IMG/VR virus record: IMGVR_UViG_3300045141_000295
Location: 1 to 45,777 of that record
DNA from: a virus
Reading direction: 5' to 3' (one strand)
DNA length: 45,777 bases
Made by a program: the position numbers and the translations under genes. Shown piece after piece: positions 2,641-44,607 of the stretch; position 1 is the first letter of the stretch, and each line of letters begins with the position of its first letter. The notes beneath the pieces were generated by a model. That model made no database searches and had not been told where the DNA came from. It was given only the letters and a program-made list of their open reading frames with translations.

Positions 2641-3077
2641 CAGTCGCCCACCACGATACGAATATCGCCCTGCACGCCCAGCCGGCGAAGCTCCTGCATC
2701 TGCTCGATGACCCCCACCGTATCACGTTTCTCGACCAAATAGGTGAGCAAACTGCGTCGCAGCGCTGACCCTTTGGGGTCGCCAGCAATCGCCGACCGCA
2801 TGCTCTCGATCGCCGCTTCCTCCGACCCCGGCCAGCGGTACGCCGCATAGAACATAGCCGGACCTGTTCTGAACACAAAGTTCAGTGGAAACAAAATCCT
2901 TGCTGTCTCCAGGAAGTACAACGCCTGCGCAGGATTCTGCGCGCTTCTCCAGCCGATCCGATGGCACCACTCGCCGCCCATGGAACAAATCGCGTACAGA
3001 AACCCGACCGCGACAAAGGCAGCCCGCCACAAGCCCTGCAAGAAACTGGGGTACGGGGAAGTAAAGCGGCATATCAA
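2640..3077 (-). CDS. TPR-like reading frame, +1 relative to the ligase-like gene it overlaps
   Basis: The frame has 145 aa from a TTG at 3077-3075, preceded by GGAGG at 6 bases. It opens with a hydrophobic helix (LWRAAFVAVGFLYAICS), then a soluble helical part resembling tetratricopeptide repeats (AQALYFLETARILFPLN; SEEAAIESMRSAIAGDPKG). It overlaps the last 356 bases of the ligase-like gene, whose own C-terminus in that stretch looks like out-of-frame sequence. Known Wzy_C-domain glycan ligases often carry a C-terminal TPR region, so the two frames may be one protein joined by frameshifting or broken by an indel. Otherwise it is a separate coupled gene. Confidence 0.7.
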   Translation of the reverse strand: MICRFTSPYPSFLQGLWRAAFVAVGFLYAICSMGGEWCHRIGWRSAQNPAQALYFLETARILFPLNFVFRTGPAMFYAAYRWPGSEEAAIESMRSAIAGDPKGSALRRSLLTYLVEKRDTVGVIEQMQELRRLGVQGDIRIVVGD

Positions 3078-4041
3078 CGAACGCCTCCACCAGCAACGCC
3101 AACCACACGAACCGCTCGATCTGCGGTCCCCCGCTTATCGCATAAACCGCAAACACAAGAAAGAGCCCCACCCCAGACACCCCCAACTCGTAAGCAATCT
3201 CCAGCACATCGCTGTGCGCATGCGTCGGCCGACTACCCAGCAAGTCAAGCCCCAGAGCATAGGCCGGAAACGACGTATAAAACGACCCCAACCCGTTACC
3301 CTGCAACGTCAACTGCGCGACCACATCACGCCACAGTGTGAACCGCTCCAGGTCATGCCGCCAGGCTGCATCGCCCAGGTAGACAACCACGAACAACAAT
3401 GCCAAGGCACCGACCAACGCCAGCGCACTCCAACGCACCCGTACCCACAACCACACCGCACCCGTAGCTCCAAGCGCCAACAGCGACGTCCGCGAATTGA
3501 GGATCGCCACGTCCGGCCAGTGAGGCAGGATAATGCAGGGCAGCACCCCGAGCGCAAGCCACCACAGGCGGTGCCCCAGGAGCCCGACCAGGACGAGCGC
3601 CGCCGGCTCCGCGAGATAGTTCGGATTGAGGAACAGCGCACCGCGCGCCAGCACCCCAGGGGCCACCGGCAATGGCTCGTAGCCCATCGCCTGCAGGACG
3701 ACGAACCCAGAGTTGACCACGAACCCCCAGCCCATCCCGATGTAGACTGCGCGCAATGACGGCTGCGCAGTACCGATCAAAAAGGCCCCAGCAATCAAAA
3801 GAAGCTGCCACAACGCGTGCAACCCGTCGGGCAAGCTGGACGTCCACGCGAGCGTCACCGCCGACCAGGCAAGAAATAAACCGCCCAGCACATGCCCCGT
3901 GCCATAGGCGGGCAGATTCAGGAACATCACTGCAACCGGTACGGTCAGCGACAACAACGCCCACCGCGGCGCCATCGCAGCGCCCGTGATCCCCGGCACG
4001 AAGCAAACGACCAGCAAGAACGAAAACAGCCGCCCAGTCAT
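2722..4041 (-). CDS. O-antigen ligase/polymerase-like membrane protein (Wzy_C type)
   Basis: The frame has 439 aa with about ten hydrophobic segments in the first 340 residues. Around residues 265-285 it has the pattern RPTHAHSDVLEIAYELGVSG, the periplasmic signature of the Wzy_C superfamily (O-antigen ligases, Wzy polymerases, PglL glycosyltransferases). Such proteins transfer or polymerise undecaprenyl-linked glycans in the inner membrane. From about residue 345 the sequence becomes hydrophilic and unlike the family, while the overlapping +1 frame continues naturally. The ATG overlaps the stop of the preceding gene. A role in altering host surface glycan to block superinfection or prevent readsorption is inferred. 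Confidence 0.8.
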   Translation of the reverse strand: MTGRLFSFLLVVCFVPGITGAAMAPRWALLSLTVPVAVMFLNLPAYGTGHVLGGLFLAWSAVTLAWTSSLPDGLHALWQLLLIAGAFLIGTAQPSLRAVYIGMGWGFVVNSGFVVLQAMGYEPLPVAPGVLARGALFLNPNYLAEPAALVLVGLLGHRLWWLALGVLPCIILPHWPDVAILNSRTSLLALGATGAVWLWVRVRWSALALVGALALLFVVVYLGDAAWRHDLERFTLWRDVVAQLTLQGNGLGSFYTSFPAYALGLDLLGSRPTHAHSDVLEIAYELGVSGVGLFLVFAVYAISGGPQIERFVWLALLVEAFVDMPLYFPVPQFLAGLVAGCLCRGRVSVRDLFHGRRVVPSDRLEKRAESCAGVVLPGDSKDFVSTELCVQNRSGYVLCGVPLAGVGGSGDREHAVGDCWRPQRVSAATQFAHLFGRET

Positions 4042-12527: not shown

Positions 12528-12929
12528 GGGAGCACAGCAATGAAACCGCCGTTCGATTGGTTTGCGTGGTCGCGGTCGCGGTCGGGGTCGCGGTCGGGGT
12601 CGTGGTCGTGGTCGCGGTCGCGGTCGGGGTCGTGGTCGTGGTCGTGGTCGTGGTCGCGGTCGCGGTCGCGGTCGTGGTCGCGGTCGGGGTCGGGAGCACA
12701 GCAATGAAACCGCCGTTCGATTGGTTTGCGTGGTCGTGGTCGCGGTCGTGGTCGCGGTCGTGGTCGTGGTCGCGGTCGTGGTCGCGGTCGTGGTCGTGGT
12801 CGCGGTCGCGGTCGCGGTCGGGGTCGCGGTCGGGGTCGCGGTCGTGGTCGTGGTCGCGGTCGGGGTCGGGGTCGTGGTCGCGGTCGTGGTCGTGGTCGCG
12901 GTCGCGGTCGTGGTCGCGGTCGCGGTCGG
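12528..12929 (+). repeat. Duplicated 45-nt leader, each followed by a GGTCGN hexamer array
   Basis: A 45-base segment starting GGGAGCACAGCAATGAAACC occurs at 12528-12572 and 12692-12736. Behind each lies a perfect hexamer tract: 21 units at 12568-12693 and 33 units at 12732-12929. Every unit is GGTCG followed by C, T or G; A never occurs and no other position varies. In the plus-strand frame CGN-GGT all variants encode Arg-Gly, so the variation is silent. In the opposite strand it is silent in a Pro-Arg frame. Whether the element acts as protein or DNA is open. Confidence 0.9.
12540..12707 (+). CDS. Repeat ORF 1: MKPPFDWFAW then Ser-(Arg/Trp/Gly) repeats
   Basis: The frame has 55 aa, begins ATG 12540 with GGGAG 8 bases upstream, and reads MKPPFDWFAW, then 21 Ser-X pairs (X is Arg, Trp or Gly), ending GAQQ. 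Its TGA overlaps the ATG of the second copy (ATGA). The start signals are better than those of any other frame here. Against it, the variable base of the hexamer changes the amino acid in this frame but not in the Arg-Gly frame. It may be real, or a leader that is frameshifted. Confidence 0.35.
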   Translation: MKPPFDWFAWSRSRSGSRSGSWSWSRSRSGSWSWSWSWSRSRSRSWSRSGSGAQQ

Positions 12930-12940
12930 CAGTACACTAA
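12704..12940 (+). CDS. Repeat ORF 2: MKPPFDWFAW then longer Ser-(Arg/Trp/Gly) repeats
   Basis: The frame has 78 aa, is a tandem paralogue of the first copy with an identical leader and ribosome-binding site, and carries 33 hexamer units before ending SAVH. Its stop at 12938-12940 is three bases from the DNA polymerase ATG, which has no good Shine-Dalgarno of its own. Translation of this frame could therefore load ribosomes onto the polymerase gene. The same reservations about the functional frame apply. Confidence 0.35.
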   Translation: MKPPFDWFAWSWSRSWSRSWSWSRSWSRSWSWSRSRSRSGSRSGSRSWSWSRSGSGSWSRSWSWSRSRSWSRSRSAVH

Positions 12941-12942
12941 AA

Positions 12943-13989
12943 ATGCAAATAATCAGTCTCGACTTTGAAACGTATTTTGACGACGCTTACTCGTTGAAAA
13001 AGATGACCACGGAAGCCTATGTGCGCGATCCGCGGTTCGAGGCGCACGGTTGCGCGATTAGATGGCCCGATGGGCAAATTGAATGGTCAAGACTTCCACC
13101 TGCGGTTGATGATTGGTCGCAGTACGCAATTCTGTGCCATCACGCCCACTTCGACGGTTTAATCTTGGACCACCACTACGCCATCCGGCCAGCGTTTTGG
13201 CTCGACACCCTGAGCATGGGGCGCATGTGCATTGGCCCTGAAGTCTCGTTGAGCCTGGAGAGTTTAGCCAGACACTTCGATCGCGCGCCCAAGTCGGTGC
13301 CCTACGACCTGTTCAAAGGCAAGCACTGGTCGGAGCTCACTCCCGACGTACAGCGCCAGGTCGCCGGCGGTGCGTGCAACGATGTGGCGCTGACGTGGGA
13401 GCTGGCGCAATACATGCTGGCCGGCGGGCATCCTGCGGTGCCCTATCCGTTTCCACAAAGCGAGCTGAAAGTGGTGGACTTGACGGTCCGCATGTTTACG
13501 GAACCCACCCTGGTCGGCGACCTGAACGCGCTGGCGCAGGTATGGCGCGACGAGGAGTACGAGAAGCAGGCGTTGTTCGCGGAGCTGGGTGTTGACCCCA
13601 AGGATCTACGCAGCGACGAGAAGTTTGCGGCGCTTCTCAAAGCGGAAGGCCTGGAGCTGGCCACCAAGACGACTGCTAAGGGCAACGAGAAGTACGCGTT
13701 CGCCAAGTCGGACTATTTCATGCAAGACCTGGTGGCCAGCGAGGACGAGCGCGTGGCCATGCTGGCGGAAGCACGCCAGAAGGCTATGAGCTCAATCTAC
13801 CAGACGAGGGCCGAACGGCTGGGCTTTATGGCGACACGCGGCCCGATGTGCGTGTACCTTGGCTACGCGGCCGCGCACACTCGGCGCTGGGGCGGGGGCG
13901 ATAAGCTCAATTGGCAGAACTTCCCGCGCAGCGATCCCGCGAAACCGAAAAAGGGCGCGTTGCGGCGTGCAATCAAAGCTCCATGTTGA
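12943..13989 (+). CDS. DNA polymerase family A, exonuclease and N-terminal half
   Basis: The frame has 348 aa from ATG 12943 (MQIISLDFETYFDDAYSLKK). DFE at residues 7-9 is the first motif of the 3'-5' exonuclease. The last 60 residues have the family A signature before motif A: an arginine-rich helix, GDKLNWQNFPRS and LRRAIKAP. Reading then meets TGA at 13987. In intact family A polymerases a few more residues lead into the catalytic aspartate, and here that part continues in the -1 frame. The ATG lacks a visible Shine-Dalgarno, and the frame is open far upstream through the hexamer array. Confidence 0.85.
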   Translation: MQIISLDFETYFDDAYSLKKMTTEAYVRDPRFEAHGCAIRWPDGQIEWSRLPPAVDDWSQYAILCHHAHFDGLILDHHYAIRPAFWLDTLSMGRMCIGPEVSLSLESLARHFDRAPKSVPYDLFKGKHWSELTPDVQRQVAGGACNDVALTWELAQYMLAGGHPAVPYPFPQSELKVVDLTVRMFTEPTLVGDLNALAQVWRDEEYEKQALFAELGVDPKDLRSDEKFAALLKAEGLELATKTTAKGNEKYAFAKSDYFMQDLVASEDERVAMLAEARQKAMSSIYQTRAERLGFMATRGPMCVYLGYAAAHTRRWGGGDKLNWQNFPRSDPAKPKKGALRRAIKAPC

Positions 13990-14771
13990 TCGGCAAGCTC
14001 GACCTGTCTCAAATCGAGTGCCGCGTGCTCAACACGCTCGCTGGCCAGTGGGACGTGGTCGAGAAGTTCAAACGAGGGGAAGACCTTTATGTCTGGAACG
14101 CCAGCAAATTTTATGGACGGCCGATCACTAAAGCCGACGTTGCCGAACGAGGAACCGGCAAACAGCTGGAACTCTCGTGCGGCTACGGCGCGGGCGGGCC
14201 GACCATTGTTCGCACGGCTCGTCTTGGGACCTACGGGCCGCCCGTATATCTTACTGATCAGCAAGGAATGGCCGCACGAGATCTATATCGATCGACGCAC
14301 CCCGCTGTAGTGGCCTACTGGGATCTCGCGGGTCGTATGCTGTGGCACCTCCTCGACGGCGGTACAGTGCAGTGGGGGCCGATGGTCGTTAAGGACCATC
14401 GCATATTCGGCCCTGGCGGGACCTGGCTTGACTTCACCAGCCTCGAGCGCCACACCGACGAGTTCGGGCAAACCGAGTGGCGGCACCGCGTCAAGCAGGG
14501 GCACCGCAAAACCTACGGCGCGCGGCTTACTGAGAACGTGGTACAGTGGTTGTCGCGGATCATTCTCAGCGACGCCATGGTGCGTATTTCAAACCTGGGG
14601 TTGCGAATCCCCTTGACGGTGCACGACGATTGTTTTATTCTTGTTGAAGACGATGAACAGGCTGAACGTAGGTTACGCGAGGCGGAAGCCGAAATGTCCA
14701 GGACAGTCGCGTGGCTGCCTGAGTGTCCGATCGGCTGCGAAGCAAAATTGCTGGGAGCGTTAGATGATTGA
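13983..14771 (+). CDS. DNA polymerase family A, catalytic C-terminal half (-1 frame)
   Basis: The frame has 262 aa from ATG 13983, which overlaps the stop of the N-terminal half. It contains motif A LDLSQIECRVL right at the start, the O-helix motif ending YG (KQLELSCGYGAGG) and motif C VHDD (IPLTVHDDCFILVE). The palm and fingers are thus complete. It has no Shine-Dalgarno at a sensible distance. Compared with E. coli Pol I spacing between the AP of the lead-in and the motif A aspartate, about 7 bases are missing, which would explain the frame break. Options are a real split polymerase with reinitiation, a -1 frameshift, a recent mutation or an assembly error. Confidence 0.85.
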   Translation: MLIGKLDLSQIECRVLNTLAGQWDVVEKFKRGEDLYVWNASKFYGRPITKADVAERGTGKQLELSCGYGAGGPTIVRTARLGTYGPPVYLTDQQGMAARDLYRSTHPAVVAYWDLAGRMLWHLLDGGTVQWGPMVVKDHRIFGPGGTWLDFTSLERHTDEFGQTEWRHRVKQGHRKTYGARLTENVVQWLSRIILSDAMVRISNLGLRIPLTVHDDCFILVEDDEQAERRLREAEAEMSRTVAWLPECPIGCEAKLLGALDD

Positions 14772-25018: not shown

Positions 25019-25091
25019 GCGCTTCTAGCTGCTCTGCTGGTTCGAGAAAATCAAACCCTTCGCGTAACCGTGCGACTGCAGCTTGGGCAAT
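24783..25091 (-). CDS. Terminase small subunit-like protein (start unresolved)
   Basis: The credible part, about 100 aa, is helical and reads EALTSLALQDYHRILAIPL, then LGLWLRAKLRAGRDILAARL and RVDENSLKKQRLDTLPELVR. The layout, with a central RVDENxLKK and a C-terminal Leu-rich helix, resembles small terminases of podoviruses, which bind the packaging site. No ATG, GTG or TTG lies at a convincing place: the ATT at 25091 is the first in-frame option near the ATP-grasp stop (25025), so the boundary is a guess. The whole gene is antisense to 24701-25018. It is the last late gene. Confidence 0.5.
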   Translation of the reverse strand: MAQAAVARLREGFDFLEPAEQLEALTSLALQDYHRILAIPLHARPPEELGLWLRAKLRAGRDILAARLRVDENSLKKQRLDTLPELVRLIAEAKEGNPKLEL

Positions 25092-26365
25092 TGCCGGGAG
25101 AGCTTCGACCCTATGTCCGTGCGGTACATCGGTGAGCCCGGCATGCGCTTCCTGATCCGCTCCAGGCGGCGATACACTTTCCCACGGGCGTCCTGAATGG
25201 TGAGCCCCGTTGCCGTCATCACCAGCACGTAATCGCCGGCCGTCATTGGGCACGGAGACTTCACCAGCGCGTCGCCGGCTTCTACCCACGTCTCCCCGAG
25301 CATCATCTCGCACGGGTGCAGGTGCTCCATCAAGCTGGGGTTCACGTCGAAGATCGGAATGCCCACTACTTCCTTCCGGGTCGCATGCGAATACGGATAG
25401 TCCGGCACGGACAGCACCACCCCGATCGCCACGCGGTCGAGAAAAAATGGACGTGCGTCCGTCCCAGTCGCCAGGTCGTAGAGCCACTCTATCGGGTCTC
25501 CCTTCACGAGCGCGCATTGAAGCTGAAAAGCTGGCCAGCCGAGACGCGTCGTGAATTCGAGCGGCCACGGGTTGCCGCTCGCGTCGATGATGCAGTTGAC
25601 GTCAATATCGCCGACGTAGTTCATTTTTTCAAGCTGCTTGGCAAGTGGGATCAGCACCTTCTCGGCGAGCTTGGAGCGCCGAACGTAGCGCAGGACTGTA
25701 CCTTGCTCGCCCGTGGCACAGCCGATATCGTCATTCATCAGCTTCTTGAACTCGAAATTTTCCTCGAAGGAGTCATTGAATCCGTGTGGACCATGCCAAC
25801 CGGCCACGCCCATCTCGATGCCGGGCACGAAGTCCTGAAGGATGAAGGAACCCTTCAACTTGTTCGACTTCTTCCACCGCTCGAGCATGTATACCATGTC
25901 GTCGGGGCCGGACGAGCAGTACGACAGCGCCTTGTCGGCGTTGGCGTCGTCGCACGGCTTGGAGACGTAACGCTGCATCGTCTTCTTCACGTGCGCGATT
26001 GCGTCGTCGTAGGAGTGAAACGCACGCGAAGTTATTACCGGAATGTTCGCAGCCTTGAGAATTTTTTGGCCAAGCTGCCGGTCGAGCTCCCACTGCGCCA
26101 TCTCCTGGGATGGAGCGATGATGACACCCCCCTCCTTACGGTGGGCGTCAAGGTCGCGCAGGTAAAGGGAGTTGTCCGTACACACTATAAGGTTCGCCCA
26201 GCGAAGCCACGGTCGGAAGTCGGCTTGCACATCGACGTAGCCGCGTCCGATCGCTTTCGACTTTTCATCCTGACGGATAGCAAGCTTGACCTCGTGACCG
26301 GCGGCCTGGGCACGTATCGCGAGATCAAGCCCGTGGCCGGGAGGATCGACAATGAGCAACTTCAC
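25025..26365 (-). CDS. ATP-grasp enzyme, PurD (phosphoribosylamine-glycine ligase)-like
   Basis: The protein has 446 aa and begins MKLLIVDPPGHGLDLAIRAQ, a nucleotide-fold N-domain like GAR synthetase. The ATP-grasp core includes FILQDFVPGIEMGVAGWHGP, VGDIDVNCIID and PLEFTTRLGWPAF (metal-binding E and N/R). The C-terminus YRTDIG followed by GYAKG mirrors the end of PurD. PurD makes glycinamide ribonucleotide in purine synthesis. No other purine gene is present, and the gene lies among ejection genes in the late operon, so the true substrate may differ. Confidence 0.75.
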   Translation of the reverse strand: MKLLIVDPPGHGLDLAIRAQAAGHEVKLAIRQDEKSKAIGRGYVDVQADFRPWLRWANLIVCTDNSLYLRDLDAHRKEGGVIIAPSQEMAQWELDRQLGQKILKAANIPVITSRAFHSYDDAIAHVKKTMQRYVSKPCDDANADKALSYCSSGPDDMVYMLERWKKSNKLKGSFILQDFVPGIEMGVAGWHGPHGFNDSFEENFEFKKLMNDDIGCATGEQGTVLRYVRRSKLAEKVLIPLAKQLEKMNYVGDIDVNCIIDASGNPWPLEFTTRLGWPAFQLQCALVKGDPIEWLYDLATGTDARPFFLDRVAIGVVLSVPDYPYSHATRKEVVGIPIFDVNPSLMEHLHPCEMMLGETWVEAGDALVKSPCPMTAGDYVLVMTATGLTIQDARGKVYRRLERIRKRMPGSPMYRTDIGSKLSRQLPKLQSHGYAKGLIFSNQQSS

Positions 26366-38582: not shown

Positions 38583-39080
38583 ATGCCACGAGCACCCCTT
38601 GATCTGTCCAGCGGCGTAAAGCGCTGTCCGCGCTGCAAACAAACAAAGCCCCTCGACGAGTTCTTCAAGTCGAGCCATACAAAGCACGGTTACAACGTAT
38701 ACTGCAAGCCGTGCTCGGGCAAACGCCACGATAAATGGCGTCGCAGAAATTTGCTCCACTTGGCCGCGTGTTCTAAAAAATGGCGCGAAGCCAACCCAAG
38801 ACTGGCTAAAGACCACAAGCTGCGCTGCCGTTTGGGTATTCCGTTGGGAACTTACGACGTGCTGCTTACACGCCAACAGGGCCGTTGCGCACTCTGCCGG
38901 TCGCTTACTCCAGGAGGCCGCGGAGACTTTCATGTTGATCACTGCCACCAAACCAACCGCATCCGTGGCCTGCTTTGCCACGGATGCAATGTTAGTTTGG
39001 GACATTTTCAGCATAGTATTCACATCCTCAAGTATGCTATAGAATACCTTGCTTCAGCCGAAAGTAACACTGAAAGCTGA
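38583..39080 (+). CDS. Endonuclease VII-like HNH endonuclease 2 (probable homing-type element)
   Basis: The protein has 165 aa. It has CPRCKQTK and CKPC, a basic helix, then CALCRSL, FHVDHCHQTNRIRGLLC and HGCNVSLGHF with the HVDHC catalytic core. It is a diverged relative of HNH 1 (both carry the LGIPLGTYD / LGMPLGAYD segment and the same cysteine order). AGGAGACC precedes the ATG and it has its own promoter. Its 3' end overlaps the capsid gene's 3' end by 27 bases, in the same convergent arrangement as HNH 1. Confidence 0.86.
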   Translation: MPRAPLDLSSGVKRCPRCKQTKPLDEFFKSSHTKHGYNVYCKPCSGKRHDKWRRRNLLHLAACSKKWREANPRLAKDHKLRCRLGIPLGTYDVLLTRQQGRCALCRSLTPGGRGDFHVDHCHQTNRIRGLLCHGCNVSLGHFQHSIHILKYAIEYLASAESNTES

Positions 39081-40403
39081 AGTTGATTCTATGCGCATAA
39101 AGAACTGTTGGTTTTCAATTAATGTTCCATAATATGCCTTCCAGCCGACCACGCGAAGCTGGTTCAGCGGATCGCTCTTGTCGGCGTCCTTGAGGTACGA
39201 GAACTTCACGTTGTCGAGCATCACCTGCCCGTAGGCGCCGCGGCCGAAGATGAAGCACGGATACACGGTGATGCCGTTCGCGGGCGCCGCCGGCGGCACC
39301 TGCGCGATACCCACGCCCGTGATCACCACGGTTTGTCCGCCGGCGAGCTGCGTCGCCTGCCCCGCGTACGGACCCGTCGTCGGCCCCGCCGCCGAAAGCC
39401 CCAAGTTGAACGGCGTGTTGGCGCCCGCGTTAACGTAAACGTTGAAGGTGAAGCCGGCGACCGTCGGCAGCACCACGGAGATCGACCCGTTCGGCCCCGC
39501 GACCGAGATGGCGTTCGACACACCGTAGATGCGCGACTCGTACTGGTTCTGCGTGTCCTGCGCGGTGACCTGAATGAAGTAGTTGGCGTTGGTGGCGAGC
39601 GCCCCAGCCGAACCGGGAGTGCCTTGGATCGCCGTCACGCCCGTGAACGTCGGCACGAGGTTCGACCGACAGAACCGGATGCCGCCCCACTCACCCAGCT
39701 CGTAGTTGTACAGCCGGTTGATATCGCTGTACGTCCACGCTTGGTTGATCGTCGGGTTCTCGCGCATGTCGGCCACGGCGAGCGTGTGCAGAACAGCCGA
39801 GTAGTGCGGCATCTTGCGCGGATTGTTCGATGCCTTGGCGCCGCCGGCGTCGGCCTCCAGGCGCGTATCGGTCATCTCGTCGCCGTCGTAGCGCGGCGCC
39901 CCGAGCGTCTCGAGGATCGCGGTGGCGCGCGTAATCTCGTGCGGGTTGAGCACGTCGCCGGCCACCAGGGCACCGCGACTGCCACGCGTGTTGACGAAAT
40001 TGACCTGCGCGCCGGCGAGGAGGTTGTTGAAGGTGTTGCGCTCGAGGGTCTCGGCAATCTGGAGCCCGAGCAGCTCCTTGGCCTTGACGAACAGCGGGTG
40101 CTTGATCGTGAGCTCGCCGACGTCCGTGATGGTGATCTTGTCGCCCCACTGCTGCGCGGTCGCGGAGACCTGCGAAATGGTCATGTTCTGCCCGATGGGC
40201 GGAACACCTTCAGAGAGGGGGGCAGAGGGGAGGGGAACACGGTTGTAACGGGTCGCCGTGTACCCGGTACCGCGACCCTTCGGTAGTGTCAGTGGATCGC
40301 CGAATTGGTAGACAACGAGCTGGCGTCGGGCGAGGGGCAGGGTTTCGTCGGCGAGGTAGCCTTCAATGTCCGCAGCAAAGGAACCGGCAACGTTGGTAGC
40401 CAT
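39054..40403 (-). CDS. Major capsid protein, N4-gp56 family
   Basis: The protein has 449 aa. The family signature is clear: LPLARRQLVVYQFGDPLTLP, GRGTGYTATRYNRVPLPSAP, LSEGVPPIGQNMTISQVSAT, QQWGDKITITDV. An extra beta-rich domain of about 120 residues (roughly 255-375, starting TPGSAGALATNANYFIQVTA) interrupts the C-terminal half and looks Ig-like, probably exposed on the capsid surface. The C-terminus resumes with IFGRGAYGQVMLDNVKFSYL. Known members form HK97-fold shells. The gene follows the scaffold-like gene. Confidence 0.92.
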   Translation of the reverse strand: MATNVAGSFAADIEGYLADETLPLARRQLVVYQFGDPLTLPKGRGTGYTATRYNRVPLPSAPLSEGVPPIGQNMTISQVSATAQQWGDKITITDVGELTIKHPLFVKAKELLGLQIAETLERNTFNNLLAGAQVNFVNTRGSRGALVAGDVLNPHEITRATAILETLGAPRYDGDEMTDTRLEADAGGAKASNNPRKMPHYSAVLHTLAVADMRENPTINQAWTYSDINRLYNYELGEWGGIRFCRSNLVPTFTGVTAIQGTPGSAGALATNANYFIQVTAQDTQNQYESRIYGVSNAISVAGPNGSISVVLPTVAGFTFNVYVNAGANTPFNLGLSAAGPTTGPYAGQATQLAGGQTVVITGVGIAQVPPAAPANGITVYPCFIFGRGAYGQVMLDNVKFSYLKDADKSDPLNQLRVVGWKAYYGTLIENQQFFMRIESTSAFSVTFG

Positions 40404-40440: not shown

Positions 40441-41187
40441 TCAGATTTCCGCGCTCTCCAGACGGCGCCTGCGCGCCTCTGCCTCGCTGACCGCGCGCCG
40501 ATCGCCGCCCACGTCGCTGCGTCCCCCGGAGGGCCGCGCCTGCTGACTTGCGATCCGCTTCTGTCCACTCGCCTTCTTCCTCAAAACTTCCTTGGAGCCC
40601 TGGTTGGCCAGCACGCGCTCGCCAATTACGAACTTCAGAACCGCTTCCCTGGGCACCCACTGACCCAGCGCCTGCAGTTCCTTCCGCTTCGCCTCGACCG
40701 CGGGCGCGTACCGCTTGTAACGCTCGTCCACGGCAGCCTTGGCGTCGAACGTCGCCTTGTCGAGCGTCTCCTGCTGCTGCATCGCCGTCGCCGCGACGAA
40801 CCGCTGGTTACGCTGTTCCGACCGCAGAAACCGTGCCTCCATCCGCTCGTCGGGGGGCAACAAGGCAATGCGTGCCTGGAACTGTTGTTCAGTCTCCTCT
40901 TGCGGCCCGGTCTGCACCGGACCCGGTTGCGTCACCTGGCGCTCTACATTGGAGAGCCGGTCACGAAGCTCGCGATTCTCGTTCGCCAGTCGCTGGAGCC
41001 GATTGCTGCCCCGTGAGGCAGGCGGCTCCGCGTCCTCTACATCGACGTCTTCTCCAGCCTCTTGTTCCTCTGGAGCTTGTTCGGGGGCATCGGCACCTTC
41101 GACTTGCTCGACGTCTTCCCCTTCGCCTGGAGTTTGTTCGGTGGAAACTTCTTCGTCGTCTTCGGCATCGCCAACGTCCTTCGCCAT
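40441..41187 (-). CDS. Capsid scaffold-like protein
   Basis: The protein has 248 aa. A strongly acidic N-terminus (DVGDAEDDEEVSTEQTPGEG) is followed by a coiled coil (RLQRLANENRELRDRLSNVE), a Gln/Glu-rich helical centre and a basic C-terminus (RRAVSEAEARRRRLES). This order, acidic, coiled coil, basic capsid-binding end, is typical of phage scaffolds. It lies just upstream of the capsid gene, as scaffolds do. Sequence-family recognition was not possible. Confidence 0.78.
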   Translation of the reverse strand: MAKDVGDAEDDEEVSTEQTPGEGEDVEQVEGADAPEQAPEEQEAGEDVDVEDAEPPASRGSNRLQRLANENRELRDRLSNVERQVTQPGPVQTGPQEETEQQFQARIALLPPDERMEARFLRSEQRNQRFVAATAMQQQETLDKATFDAKAAVDERYKRYAPAVEAKRKELQALGQWVPREAVLKFVIGERVLANQGSKEVLRKKASGQKRIASQQARPSGGRSDVGGDRRAVSEAEARRRRLESAEI

Positions 41188-41296: not shown

Positions 41297-41467
41297 CTAG
41301 ATGTGCCCGAGCAGCACCAGCACGAGCACGATGACCAGCACCAACCCGAGCCCGCCACCACCGTAATAGCCGGTGCCGTAGAATGGGCCGCTGACATTCC
41401 AGGGGCCGGTGAGCCCGCCGAAAAGGGCGAGGATCAAAATCACAAGCAGAATTGTTCCGAGCGTCAT
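41297..41467 (-). CDS. DUF3309-type membrane microprotein
   Basis: The frame runs from ATG 41467 to TAG 41297 and has 56 aa: MTLGTILLVILILALFGGLT, a glycine-tyrosine loop (YGTGYYGGGGLG) and a second hydrophobic helix LVLVIVLVLVLLGHI. This matches DUF3309 proteins, short two-helix membrane proteins common in Alphaproteobacteria, including Bradyrhizobium. AGGAG stands 6 bases before the ATG. Function is unknown. Its presence in a phage late block is a host clue and possibly a membrane or lysis-related gene. Confidence 0.8.
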   Translation of the reverse strand: MTLGTILLVILILALFGGLTGPWNVSGPFYGTGYYGGGGLGLVLVIVLVLVLLGHI

Positions 41468-41476
41468 GGCAGGCTC

Positions 41477-42061
41477 CTATTTGTGAAAACCTAAAGCGTA
41501 CGCAACGAAAGCGAGGATAATCGTTACGCCGATCGCAATCAACGCTGTCTGCTGAGTTCGGTTGCTATGCGATTCGTCCCGGCTGTCTCGGCGGTTCGTG
41601 TCGGCCGCCGTCGTGCTGGCCGTGCTCAAATCAAACCGCGATGTCAGCCGGTCGATCTTGTCGTTGATCACCGTAACAGCGGTTGCAAAGTTTATCTGCT
41701 GCTGTTTCAGAAGCTCCGTGAGCGCTCCCTCGCTTTTGGCCGCCGACTTCTCTTGCGTCTGAAGGGCAGCCGTCAAAGCTGTGGAGTTTGCCAAGCCAAG
41801 TTGACCGACCAGTTCCTTGTTTGCTTGCGCCGCAGCCGATGCCGCGTTCTGAATCTCGATTTTCAGCGTCGAAATTTCCCGGTGGTATTCATCGCGCGCC
41901 AACGTTGTAGCTTGGTCAATCGCTTGAAACCGAAAATCTATTTTTTCGTCAAGGCCGTTGATCCGCCCATCGATGTTTGCCACGGCAAGCTTTAGAGCCT
42001 CTGTGACCGCTGCAGTGGGATCAGGATCAGTAACAACAACGTTGCGCGAATCTTTAGCCAT
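41477..42061 (-). CDS. Coiled-coil protein with C-terminal membrane anchor
   Basis: The protein has 194 aa and begins MAKDSRNVVVTDPDPTAAVT. Residues 15-150 are a long coiled coil (GLDEKIDFRFQAIDQATTLA; LTELLKQQQINFATAVTVIN). It ends in a membrane helix (TALIAIGVTIILAFVAYALG) and FHK. Proteins of this tail-anchored plan are common near phage lysis genes and may be spanin-like or regulators, but no motif proves this. The DUF3309 gene follows at 10 bases. Confidence 0.65.
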   Translation of the reverse strand: MAKDSRNVVVTDPDPTAAVTEALKLAVANIDGRINGLDEKIDFRFQAIDQATTLARDEYHREISTLKIEIQNAASAAAQANKELVGQLGLANSTALTAALQTQEKSAAKSEGALTELLKQQQINFATAVTVINDKIDRLTSRFDLSTASTTAADTNRRDSRDESHSNRTQQTALIAIGVTIILAFVAYALGFHK

Positions 42062-42072
42062 CGTCTAGCTCA

Positions 42073-42579
42073 TTACGGTTCCAGCACGCGCCCGACCAAG
42101 GTGCCCTCTGCTTGCTCTGACTGAAATTTCCGACCCCACATAGTCACGCGGTCGATCACCAACCTGCGCGTAACTATAAAACCTCCTGGTACAACCCCTC
42201 CTGGGCCGCACGACGGTATTGTCCACTCACGCGGCGGCACACCCCCTGAACCCTTGTGCACCGGACCAGGTGCCTTTGGCGGATTGCCTGGATACGTCTG
42301 AATTGCCACCGCCGTAGCAGGATCTGCACACTTCGTCGTCTCGACGACACTGAAGCTCAACGGCACCTCGAACCATTCCCCGCTGAGGTGCAACCCTACT
42401 TTATCACCGGCATGCCCTTCCGCCGGAACGAGCGACGCACTGTCAAAACGAAATGCTGGAGTCGTGCGCGGGAAGGTAGACCAGAACACACCTGCCCCGA
42501 TCGCCACCAATACGCACACACCCGCCAATGCACGTAGACGAAAATTTATGGGTGTCGCCCTAGCCAAGTGCTCAACCAT
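42073..42579 (-). CDS. Membrane-anchored periplasmic-type protein, unknown
   Basis: The protein has 168 aa from ATG 42579 (MVEHLARATPINFRLRALAG). Residues 14-35 are a membrane helix (RLRALAGVCVLVAIGAGVFW) with a positive N-terminus. The rest is beta-type with three Cys, two of them (VETTKCADP; PSCGPGG) likely disulfide-bonded in the periplasm. An upstream ATG at 42630 would add 17 unnatural residues. It overlaps the 72-aa gene by 34 bases. Located among lysis genes, so an envelope role is likely. Confidence 0.6.
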   Translation of the reverse strand: MVEHLARATPINFRLRALAGVCVLVAIGAGVFWSTFPRTTPAFRFDSASLVPAEGHAGDKVGLHLSGEWFEVPLSFSVVETTKCADPATAVAIQTYPGNPPKAPGPVHKGSGGVPPREWTIPSCGPGGVVPGGFIVTRRLVIDRVTMWGRKFQSEQAEGTLVGRVLEP

Positions 42580-42764
42580 TGCAGTCCGCCGATCACACTT
42601 CCGGCCACGCCCGCTATTGCGGCGATCCACGCAATCAGGATGGGCCTGTTTTCCCTACGCTCGCGCTCCTTCTGCTCGCCGCGCTCAACCCACTCGAACT
42701 GTTCTTTGTTGCCGTCGAGAAAAGGTGGTCGCGGAGGGCGATGGTCCCTATTACCACGAGCCAT
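42546..42764 (-). CDS. 72-aa single-span membrane protein
   Basis: It begins MARGNRDHRPPRPPFLDGNK. A charged amphipathic segment (QFEWVERGEQKERERRENRP) is followed by a membrane helix (LIAWIAAIAGVAGSVIGGLQ). The N-in orientation is suggested by the arginines. The ribosome-binding site is weak. Near the endolysin, holin and outer-membrane genes, it may be a spanin or antiholin, but the motifs are not decisive. Confidence 0.55.
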   Translation of the reverse strand: MARGNRDHRPPRPPFLDGNKEQFEWVERGEQKERERRENRPILIAWIAAIAGVAGSVIGGLQWLSTWLGRHP

Positions 42765-42825: not shown

Positions 42826-42939
42826 TTAGAACCACCGCGACAGCAACCATAGCTCTGCGATCAGCAGCGGCACGCCGATAAGTAGCATTCCCAGCGCAAA
42901 CTGTCGAATGGGCACGGCGGCCGTGTACTCGCGTGCCAT
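42826..42939 (-). CDS. 37-aa membrane microprotein
   Basis: The frame begins ATG 42939, overlapping the stop of the outer-membrane gene (ATGA), and reads MAREYTAAVPIRQFALGMLL then IGVPLLIAELWLLSRWF. One membrane helix ends in two tryptophans. The ATGA overlap supports translation. It may act with the neighbouring envelope proteins. Confidence 0.55.
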   Translation of the reverse strand: MAREYTAAVPIRQFALGMLLIGVPLLIAELWLLSRWF

Positions 42940-43685
42940 CAGTAATAGATCCCGAGCCCGACCTGGTACTTGGTCCCCTGCTTCACGCACTGATCCGCAA
43001 GCGCACCGACGCAGACTGACTTGTCGGCGAACACGACTTCCGACCACACGTCAATCGCCACGCCGTTGGTGAGCTGGCCCATAGCGCCAACGCCGATCGA
43101 CGGGCTGATCTGCCAAACTTTGTTGCTCGACGTCATGAAGTTGAGACCAATCGCGTCCTCGTGCACGCCGCCCATCAAATAAGGGTGGATGTTGCTGGCC
43201 ACTTGGCCGTTCGGCAGCGCCGGGAATGGCGGGATTGTCGGCAAGCCCAGCGTCGGGAACAAGCTAAGGAAGTTGTTGAGCGGCGTCCCAATCTTCACGC
43301 GCTGCTCGAACGCAGCCGGCCCGTTGAGCGTCAAGCCCGGTGCCGCGCCGTTGAGGTTCGTAAAATCCCACATCGTCTCGACCGCATAGAACACATTCGG
43401 CGAAGCCCACACGTAACCGAACGTCGCGCCGATCGCGCCCTGGTTGGTGATGATGCTGTTCGGGTTGAGCCCCGGCGCACTTGCTTCCGCACTGCCGGCC
43501 GCTGCGAACGAGTTCAAACCGAAATAAAAGCCGTGCGACGCGTACGGATAACCGGAGAACAACGGGTTGACCGGCGCCACCTTGACGGGGAGGTCAGCCG
43601 CAAAGCCCACCACAGTGAGTTGTAGGAACGCTGCCGCGGCCACGACAGCGACCCACAGCACCAGCCAGAAAAAGCGCTTGATCAT
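42939..43685 (-). CDS. Outer-membrane beta-barrel-like protein with signal peptide
   Basis: The protein has 248 aa. The signal peptide (MIKRFFWLVLWVAVVAAAAF to FA) is cleaved near A29, giving ADLPVKVAPVNPLFSGYPYA. This mature start, ADLPVK plus a Gly/Tyr segment (GFYFGLNS), is characteristic of small outer-membrane porin/OmpA-like proteins of Bradyrhizobium and relatives. The remaining strands (YAVETMWDF; GVAIDVWSEVVFADK) alternate hydrophobic residues, and the protein ends in aromatic YQVGLGIYY, as barrel proteins do. It could exclude superinfection or alter the surface, like Lom-type phage proteins, which is inference. Confidence 0.82.
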   Translation of the reverse strand: MIKRFFWLVLWVAVVAAAAFLQLTVVGFAADLPVKVAPVNPLFSGYPYASHGFYFGLNSFAAAGSAEASAPGLNPNSIITNQGAIGATFGYVWASPNVFYAVETMWDFTNLNGAAPGLTLNGPAAFEQRVKIGTPLNNFLSLFPTLGLPTIPPFPALPNGQVASNIHPYLMGGVHEDAIGLNFMTSSNKVWQISPSIGVGAMGQLTNGVAIDVWSEVVFADKSVCVGALADQCVKQGTKYQVGLGIYY

Positions 43686-44077
43686 TTCGACTCTCCTATG
43701 GTGCCAAACACCGATGCCGGCGGCTTGCCAGACACGGTGGTGGCGGGGACTACTCGTGGAAGCGGAATGGTGTCAGCCGCCACAGGCGGCGCCTGCGTCG
43801 TGGTCTGCGTCGTGGTCGTGCTCGAGGACGCATCGCCCGGCACACCAGCGCCCGCAAGCTTTGCGATTGTCTCATTCTTCTGCACACTCTCGCGCGATGA
43901 CCCAAAGCTGTTGGAGATAACCTGCTGCGCCATAACACCAAGCGCGCCAGTCAGCGTGTTGAGCACCGCAAGCGCATTGGCATCTCCAGTCGGCGGGTAC
44001 TTCATCCACATGAAGATAACACCAACGAACGAGCAAAGCGTGATGGTTCCGTAGATCGGCTGGCTGTCAAGCTTCAC
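43682..44077 (-). CDS. Holin-like membrane protein
   Basis: The protein has 131 aa from GTG 44077, which overlaps the endolysin stop (GTGA) and follows GGGGGTACCGC. A membrane helix (YGTITLCSFVGVIFMWMKYP) is followed by a second hydrophobic stretch (LAVLNTLTGALGVMAQQVIS) and SNSFGSSRES, a junction seen in known holins, then a Thr/Pro-rich soluble tail. Its position next to the endolysin supports the function. A longer GTG start at 44116 is possible but less likely. Confidence 0.72.
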   Translation of the reverse strand: MKLDSQPIYGTITLCSFVGVIFMWMKYPPTGDANALAVLNTLTGALGVMAQQVISNSFGSSRESVQKNETIAKLAGAGVPGDASSSTTTTQTTTQAPPVAADTIPLPRVVPATTVSGKPPASVFGTIGESK

Positions 44078-44607
44078 GCGGTACCCCCCGCCATGGTCAA
44101 GGCCAGATGTAAACACCTGTCGACCCTGCCTGTCCAGCCCTTGCCGAATGTGCGGAACGTGCGCAACCCTTTGTAGAAGTCCTCGCGCTTTGTCGACACG
44201 AGCTTCAGGAGCTCCACAAGGTCGTGCGTCTGCCGGATCGCCGCCATGGTGACGATGCCGAAGTGACCGTCGGCCGTCACGCCGAGACCACGCTGAAGGA
44301 GCAGCGTCGACTCGTGCATGCCCATGTTCACGTTCATATCAAAGTACAGCAGATCGAGCCCCGCGGGCAGCGCATCGCAATACGGTAGCCAATATGACTG
44401 CTGATAGATCGCCTTCACCGTGGCGTCATCCGCTTTCCACACGTCGCCGGTCGCGGCGTGGTGCAAGAACTGCCACGCGTTGTACTCGCGCTGCGTAATA
44501 CCGCGCGATGTACGCCCGCCCGGATCACGCGGGTCGTCGTCGTCACCGCCCTCTTCCTTGAGGACGAACTTCAAACAAGCCTCAAAATTGGTCTGCACCG
44601 GTTCCAC
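44074..44607 (-). CDS. Endolysin, GH108 N-acetylmuramidase
   Basis: The protein has 177 aa. The GH108 catalytic motif is visible near the start: FVLKEEGGDDDDPRDPGGRT followed by SRGITQREY, with the catalytic glutamate in EEGG at residue 18 or 19. The C-terminal half has the PG_binding_3-like pattern (LLYFDMNVNMGMHESTLLLQ, then GHFGIVTMAAIRQ). It should cleave peptidoglycan between MurNAc and GlcNAc. No signal peptide is seen, so release depends on the adjacent holin. It follows the tail-fibre-like gene by 6 bases. Confidence 0.9.
   Translation of the reverse strand: MEPVQTNFEACLKFVLKEEGGDDDDPRDPGGRTSRGITQREYNAWQFLHHAATGDVWKADDATVKAIYQQSYWLPYCDALPAGLDLLYFDMNVNMGMHESTLLLQRGLGVTADGHFGIVTMAAIRQTHDLVELLKLVSTKREDFYKGLRTFRTFGKGWTGRVDRCLHLALTMAGGTA

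Follow-up and report, generated by a model that had tools for sequence, protein, structure and literature searches.

The window, meaning the whole stretch of DNA analysed (45,777 nucleotides; virus record IMGVR_UViG_3300045141_000295), possesses a 127-bp direct terminal repeat and therefore represents a complete circularised genome of 45,650 bp. Neither a tyrosine integrase match nor a tRNA was found in this genome. On its minus strand lies an open reading frame, P0001, which an earlier note on this DNA had described as an outer-membrane protein (OMP) gene within the lysis region. The setting was borne out, with a glycosyl hydrolase 108 (GH108) endolysin, a one-TM holin-like gene and small membrane genes surrounding the OMP gene. 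Related loci are given below as L numbers.

Table 1 Features of the OMP gene and its surroundings in the window.
Feature	Position	Strand	Details
Major capsid protein gene	39054..40403	(-)	PHROG 1357 major head protein, E 5.9e-32
Scaffold-like protein gene	40441..41187	(-)	next conserved gene downstream of cassette
Two-TM ORF (...YGTGYYGGGGLGLVLVIVLVLVLLGHI)	41297..41467	(-)	56 aa; also near cassettes of L003, L096, L101
Coiled-coil-like protein, C-terminal TM	41477..42061	(-)	194 aa; candidate inner-membrane partner
ORF, N-terminal membrane anchor and predicted periplasmic domain	42073..42630	(-)	<=185 aa; start unsure
Possible gene	42546..42764	(-)	72 aa; charged N-terminus, C-terminal TM
One-TM ORF MAREYTAAVPIRQFALGMLLIGVPLLIAELWLLSRWF	42826..42939	(-)	37 aa; ATG overlaps OMP stop (TGATG)
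Outer-membrane beta-barrel gene P0001 (predicted)	42939..43685	(-)	248 aa; ATG start
P0001 layout			signal peptide aa 1-29; N-terminal tail 30-51; eight predicted strands 52-247
Proline-rich segment, strands 4-5	43188..43280	(-)	aa 136-166; periplasmic by strand parity
Holin-like gene	43682..44116	(-)	<=144 aa; GTG start, shorter start possible; one clear TM
Endolysin, GH108 and PG_binding_3	44074..44607	(-)	177 aa

P0001 is a real gene. Its coding score is strongly positive (77.6), a ribosome site (AGGAG) lies approximately 8 nt 5' of the ATG, and this ATG overlaps the stop of the upstream holin-like gene by 4 bp (ATGA). The reading frame is also more than chance, since nine further phage homologues have 32 invariant columns in common. 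Read directly from the sequence by eye, the protein possesses both a Sec signal peptide (MIKRFFWLVLWVAVVAAAAFLQLTVVGFA, followed by the mature start ADLPVK) and an aromatic C-terminal residue (...GLGIYY).

The endolysin was identified through PF05838 (E 1.3e-22), PF09374 (E 2.4e-5) and PHROG 315 endolysin (E 1.3e-39). No holin family in Pfam or PHROG matched the holin-like gene and, given the lack of a Pfam match, its label rests on position, size and topology; a homologue is present at L003:1139-1516 (58.5%), and the gene in the homologous position in L101 matches PF23987 above cut-off. Downstream of the OMP gene, the 72-aa ORF has no family match in Pfam or PHROGs, the ORF at 42073-42630 has a weak coding score, and layouts similar to that of the coiled-coil-like protein occur at L018:5048-5521 and L107:8741-9163. 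The scaffold-like gene adjoins the capsid gene in most relatives. The tiny two-TM protein has a near-identical YGTGYYGGGGLGL core in the window (41297-41467) and at L003:2881-3042, L096:10195-10359 and L101:9258-9422, in otherwise unlike phages and always near the lysis/scaffold region.

Further features were observed elsewhere in the window. A polytopic membrane protein (2722-4041, minus strand) with an O-antigen ligase domain, Wzy_C, just below cut-off (E 4e-7) adjoins the portal/terminase genes and has a relative at L026:421-1365; it is a candidate phage-coded LPS-modifying or seroconversion protein. An ATP-grasp protein with weak GARS_A/GARS_C (PurD-like) matches is encoded among structural genes (25025-26365, minus strand). 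A long low-complexity GC-rich repeat (12562-13000, plus strand; GRGRGR..., then VVVAVAV... in frame) just precedes family A DNA polymerase-like genes (12730-13989 and 13983-14771). An Endonuclease VII/HNH-like zinc protein (38583-39080, plus strand; read by eye) is encoded right downstream of the capsid gene, on the strand opposite to its structural neighbours.

Single-sequence searches with P0001 were empty in Pfam, PHROGs, NCBIfam, PDB sequences, cultured phages, viral contigs and genomes. With no Pfam family at E <= 1, the protein is by score not a member of OMP_b-brl (PF13505), and it has no Pfam or PHROG match to the Lom/Ail/OmpX family. Relatives were fetched via the major capsid gene, yielding 114 viral contigs of which 80 were kept. 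The barrel of one, L058, proved homologous to P0001 and gave access to L094, L096, L097, L098, L099, L101, L103, L104 and L107. L099 is the same locus as L109, which lies in Bradyrhizobium sp. Tv2a-2. A profile search of approximately 1,000 sampled Hyphomicrobiales genomes recovered full-length members in Tv2a-2 only; matches were obtained in 1/266 genus, 1/397 order and 3/392 family genomes, in samples that overlap and with the best few candidates per genome scored, and two of the three family-level matches are half-length and to host-like OMPs. The Tv2a-2 locus looks prophage-like, with tail-like, lysin and lipase genes as neighbours; PF13505 matches number 18 in this genome.

In a tree with 14 host paralogues, the window family and two other phage groups share one side of a branch (support 96/91). 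Six phage barrels of host-like type are placed among the host proteins in this tree; host-like phage barrels occupy the slot behind the holin in L005, L008, L009, L013, L014 and L017. The tree suggests repeated phage capture of host-like barrels, though the AU test is compatible with one phage clade (p 0.13; for the host-like set, p 0.12). Distant homology of the P0001 family to the host OMP_b-brl set is supported by a profile-profile match to host and host-like members over the N-terminal half (probability 97.8%, E 7e-13). By profile and tree, then, P0001 is a member of a phage-only OMP family that is rare outside phages. The earlier note had taken the protein for a host-type OMP, a view that the phage-only clade, the rarity of the family outside phages and the absence of any Pfam or NCBIfam match speak against; a host-type OMP from the Bradyrhizobium core was rejected, the profile having found full-length members in Tv2a-2 only. 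The link to the Bradyrhizobium lineage drawn in that note does hold, both through this single full-length relative and through the AADLPVK start, which P0001 shares with host OMPs (L157).

AlphaFold2, run on an alignment of ten family members, predicted eight long strands in P0001 (residues 52-65, 79-95, 98-110, 124-135, 167-178, 190-205, 210-218 and 239-247; mean pLDDT 68, pTM 0.60). The PDB matches to this model are OMP barrels, namely NspA (Z 14.1; rmsd 3.1 over 146 residues), OmpW (Z 13.6) and OmpA (Z 13.0); likeness to Ail and OmpX is at fold level only (Z 9-9.5). By prediction, and with moderate confidence at this pLDDT, P0001 is an eight-stranded outer-membrane barrel resembling NspA, OmpW and OmpA. 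Together with the signal peptide and the C-terminal YY, the strands and PDB matches uphold the outer-membrane barrel proposed earlier. The accompanying designation of porin is doubtful, since eight-stranded barrels are normally too narrow for solutes. A classical 16-stranded porin (Porin_2 of Alphaproteobacteria) was rejected, as eight strands are predicted and neither Porin_2 nor any other Pfam family is matched.

Sidedness was assigned from strand parity, on the premise that both termini of such barrels are periplasmic. Connections 1-2 (66-78), 3-4 (111-123), 5-6 (179-189) and 7-8 (219-238) would accordingly lie outside, and connections 2-3 and 6-7 would be inner turns, of two to four residues. 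Where a further short inner turn is expected, the 4-5 connection is 31 residues long; proline makes up 19% of it but 6% of the remaining mature protein. The segment is kept in 10/10 family members (29-34 aa, 12-22% proline vs 3-6% elsewhere) and would face the periplasm. OMP_b-brl proteins of Bradyrhizobium and relatives have a signal peptide, an AADLPVK-type start and an eight-stranded barrel like P0001, but possess a short turn at this position; P0001 further differs from them in its separate phage-only clade, its lack of a Pfam match and its coupling to a holin. The family also contains paired cysteines that are likely to form loop disulphides: of those in the outer 7-8 loop (Cys224/225, Cys233) two are lost together in L103, and a second pair (TRCG..., GYTC) is jointly absent from the window protein in the family alignment.

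Barrels of all subfamilies were present at 17/80 capsid-group loci, many of these loci being fragments. An OMP was detectable in only 2/18 longer capsid-group contigs and is thus an accessory gene. The company kept by the barrels was counted over the 24 barrel loci with readable upstream DNA. In 13 of these, the barrel gene lies directly behind a small TM gene, the two overlapping by 4 bp in the window, L010, L011, L013, L017 and L074. In three (L073, L099, L107) a holin-like domain and the barrel form a single in-frame fusion, and three have one small ORF between the holin-like gene and the barrel (L018, L059, L097). One gene intervenes in L096, the arrangement in L005 is ambiguous, and no close holin-like gene accompanies the family barrel in L098, L103 and L104.

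An artefact of a single contig does not account for the holin-OMP fusions. L099 and L107 share 52% identity across the fusion, with steady codon bias in frame, and their sole Shine-Dalgarno sequence lies at the holin start, with none before the signal peptide; the barrel therefore cannot be made without the holin-like part. The N-terminus of the L107 protein matches a stand-alone holin-like family (E 1e-5; 4e-3 for L099) that precedes the barrels in L010, L011, L012, L014, L017 and L018, and this fusion is predicted to fold with two TM helices, another helix where the signal peptide lies and the eight strands predicted in P0001. The N-terminal domain of L073 contains two TM stretches and has no family match. 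In both L099 and L107, a class 3 lipase gene (PF01764, E ~1e-12; L099:7073-7747, L107:7041-7697) comes after a GH19-like lysin and directly 5' of the fusion; it possibly encodes another membrane-attacking lysis factor.

Holin and barrel stay associated whether the lysin is GH108 or GH19-like and whichever type of holin is present (PF23987 in L101; unnamed types elsewhere), and barrels also lie directly behind holins in unrelated phages. In L058, L072 and L073 the holin-OMP pair is found several kilobases from the lysin, indicating that the pair rather than the whole cassette is the unit. Since its production is bound to that of the holin, the barrel would be made for the lysis stage, and the tight coupling or fusion to holins favours a role at lysis time. 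It is unlikely, on these data, that host OMP genes were recruited behind the holin by chance and kept as general envelope cargo; the patchy presence of the gene and the several barrel subfamilies at the same site would suit such a passenger, but the 32 invariant columns of the window family, the overlaps and fusions with different holins and the shared slot in unrelated phages argue against it.

All reading frames were scanned for lipoproteins by a procedure that detects Rz1 and Bor in lambda; it identified no lipoprotein gene in any frame of the window, L014 or L073, all OMP-bearing genomes that are complete or near-complete. The window genome thus lacks a classical o-spanin. P0001 itself has a signal peptide without a lipobox cysteine and so is not an o-spanin by definition. 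A lipoprotein gene was found in six OMP-less relatives (L024, L027, L028, L037, L052, L056), and in L027, L028 and L037 it lies directly behind the holin, in the slot of the barrel; such replacement is suggestive, mutual exclusion of the two genes not being significant (Fisher p 0.16). At least six OMP-less relatives have neither, so an outer-membrane partner is not universal. Genes encoding a TM plus a coiled coil are common in these cassettes with or without a barrel, and at many loci such a gene comes after the holin-OMP pair or lies near it, which speaks for a lysis role. An i-spanin-like gene (N-terminal TM and coiled coil) follows the OMP gene in L096, L097 and L101; unlike classical i-spanins, the coiled-coil protein of the window has its TM at the C-terminus.

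A spanin survey found 91/677 phages without spanins, approximately 13% of the surveyed phages of Gram-negative hosts, and raises the possibility that an OMP serves as o-spanin, with a C-terminal-TM protein in the i-spanin role (PMC6139136). In lambda Rz1, the proline-rich region is indispensable (PMC5295617). P0001 resembles Rz1-type o-spanins in its place in the lysis cassette, its predicted outer-membrane location, its proline-rich, putatively periplasmic part and the membrane-anchored coiled-coil protein nearby; it differs in being far larger and anchored by a barrel rather than by lipid. A protein acting at the outer membrane and extending a proline-rich arm into the periplasm would suit the role of the missing o-spanin in phages that lack any lipoprotein.

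We tentatively propose that P0001 may be an outer-membrane lysis factor working like an o-spanin. The narrower version, that of a beta-barrel o-spanin with a proline-rich arm, coupled or fused to the holin in phages that infect Bradyrhizobium-type hosts and have no lipoprotein spanin, is more doubtful. As infection ends, P0001 would be co-translated with the holin, leave the cytoplasm through Sec and insert into the outer membrane, its proline-rich segment pointing into the periplasm. It might then help to breach the outer membrane after holin and endolysin have acted, its probable partner being the membrane-anchored coiled-coil protein of the same cassette (41477-42061) or a neighbour. Several findings count against a lysis role: by inspection, the host-like barrels in the slot lack the proline-rich segment; the family occurs without an adjacent holin in L098, L103 and L104; and the non-significant exclusion of lipoprotein and OMP, the OMP-less relatives with neither, the accessory nature of the gene and the C-terminal TM of the coiled-coil protein in the window weigh in the same direction.

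Almost as likely as a lysis role is late superinfection exclusion or protection of progeny, whereby the barrel would mask, replace or jam the phage receptor, thereby excluding other phages and keeping released virions off debris. The outer membrane is where known exclusion factors act, and T5 Llp in addition stops progeny binding to lysed fragments (PMC9586334); in T1-like phages, cor and the use of FhuA are accompanied by a gene for an outer-membrane protein of unknown role (PMC13164509). Both precedents lend weight to exclusion, as does the presence, in several relatives, of barrels close to host OMPs in the slot. Llp of T5 and Cor of T1 are phage proteins at the outer membrane, where P0001 is also predicted to reside, and among the OMP-less relatives with a lipoprotein in the slot of the barrel, that of L028 weakly matches the Cor PHROG (E 0.001, signal region only). 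However, Llp and Cor are early lipoproteins that bind FhuA, and exclusion proteins are usually early (PMC9586334), whereas P0001 is a barrel whose production is tied to the holin, in relatives even by fusion. Moreover, the most conserved extra feature of the family would be periplasmic rather than in the surface loops, and P0001 has no sequence relation to known exclusion proteins in Pfam or PHROGs. The outer-membrane location and the presence of host-like barrels would be explained just as well by exclusion or debris protection; the fusion and the conserved segment that faces inward would not.

It is improbable that P0001 is a lysogenic-conversion moron like Lom, PA-2 Lc/NmpC or Bor, altering the surface of the lysogen. 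Lc/NmpC are porins of PA-2 and DLP12, and Lom of lambda is of the Ail/OmpX type. These are phage-encoded outer-membrane proteins like P0001, though of families to which it has no sequence match, and there is precedent for OMP genes close to the lysis genes of phages, nmpC likewise adjoining a holin gene (essD in DLP12). Agrobacterium phage Rivra (PV764937.1), a cultured phage of a related host, also has an OMP gene, RIVRA_27, beside its lysis genes, next to the lysozyme gene; it was found by a search with the L017 barrel rather than the window protein, and no cultured-phage relatives were found for the barrels of L096, L013, L074, L059 and L107. Conversion would also accommodate the family member in a Bradyrhizobium chromosome contig and the stand-alone appearance of L103 and L104. 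Yet nmpC, bor and the Rivra gene are opposite in strand to the lysis genes, whereas P0001 is co-directional and translationally coupled; DLP12 moreover keeps its Rz/Rz1 genes (DLP12 map). RIVRA_27 encodes a host-like barrel in a phage with a tyrosine integrase, which the complete window genome lacks, and a healthy lysogen could not produce a holin fusion.

OMPs encoded by phages have precedents; the libraries searched yielded no case of an OMP family that is confined to phages and linked to holins through overlap and fusion. Whether P0001 acts in lysis or otherwise, it represents a phage-only OMP family named by none of four annotation libraries, and an exclusion factor of the barrel type, made at lysis, would also be unusual. 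This OMP family is a concrete candidate for the means by which spanin-less phages open the outer membrane, having a conserved motif accessible to mutation and a holin fusion linking the family to lysis.
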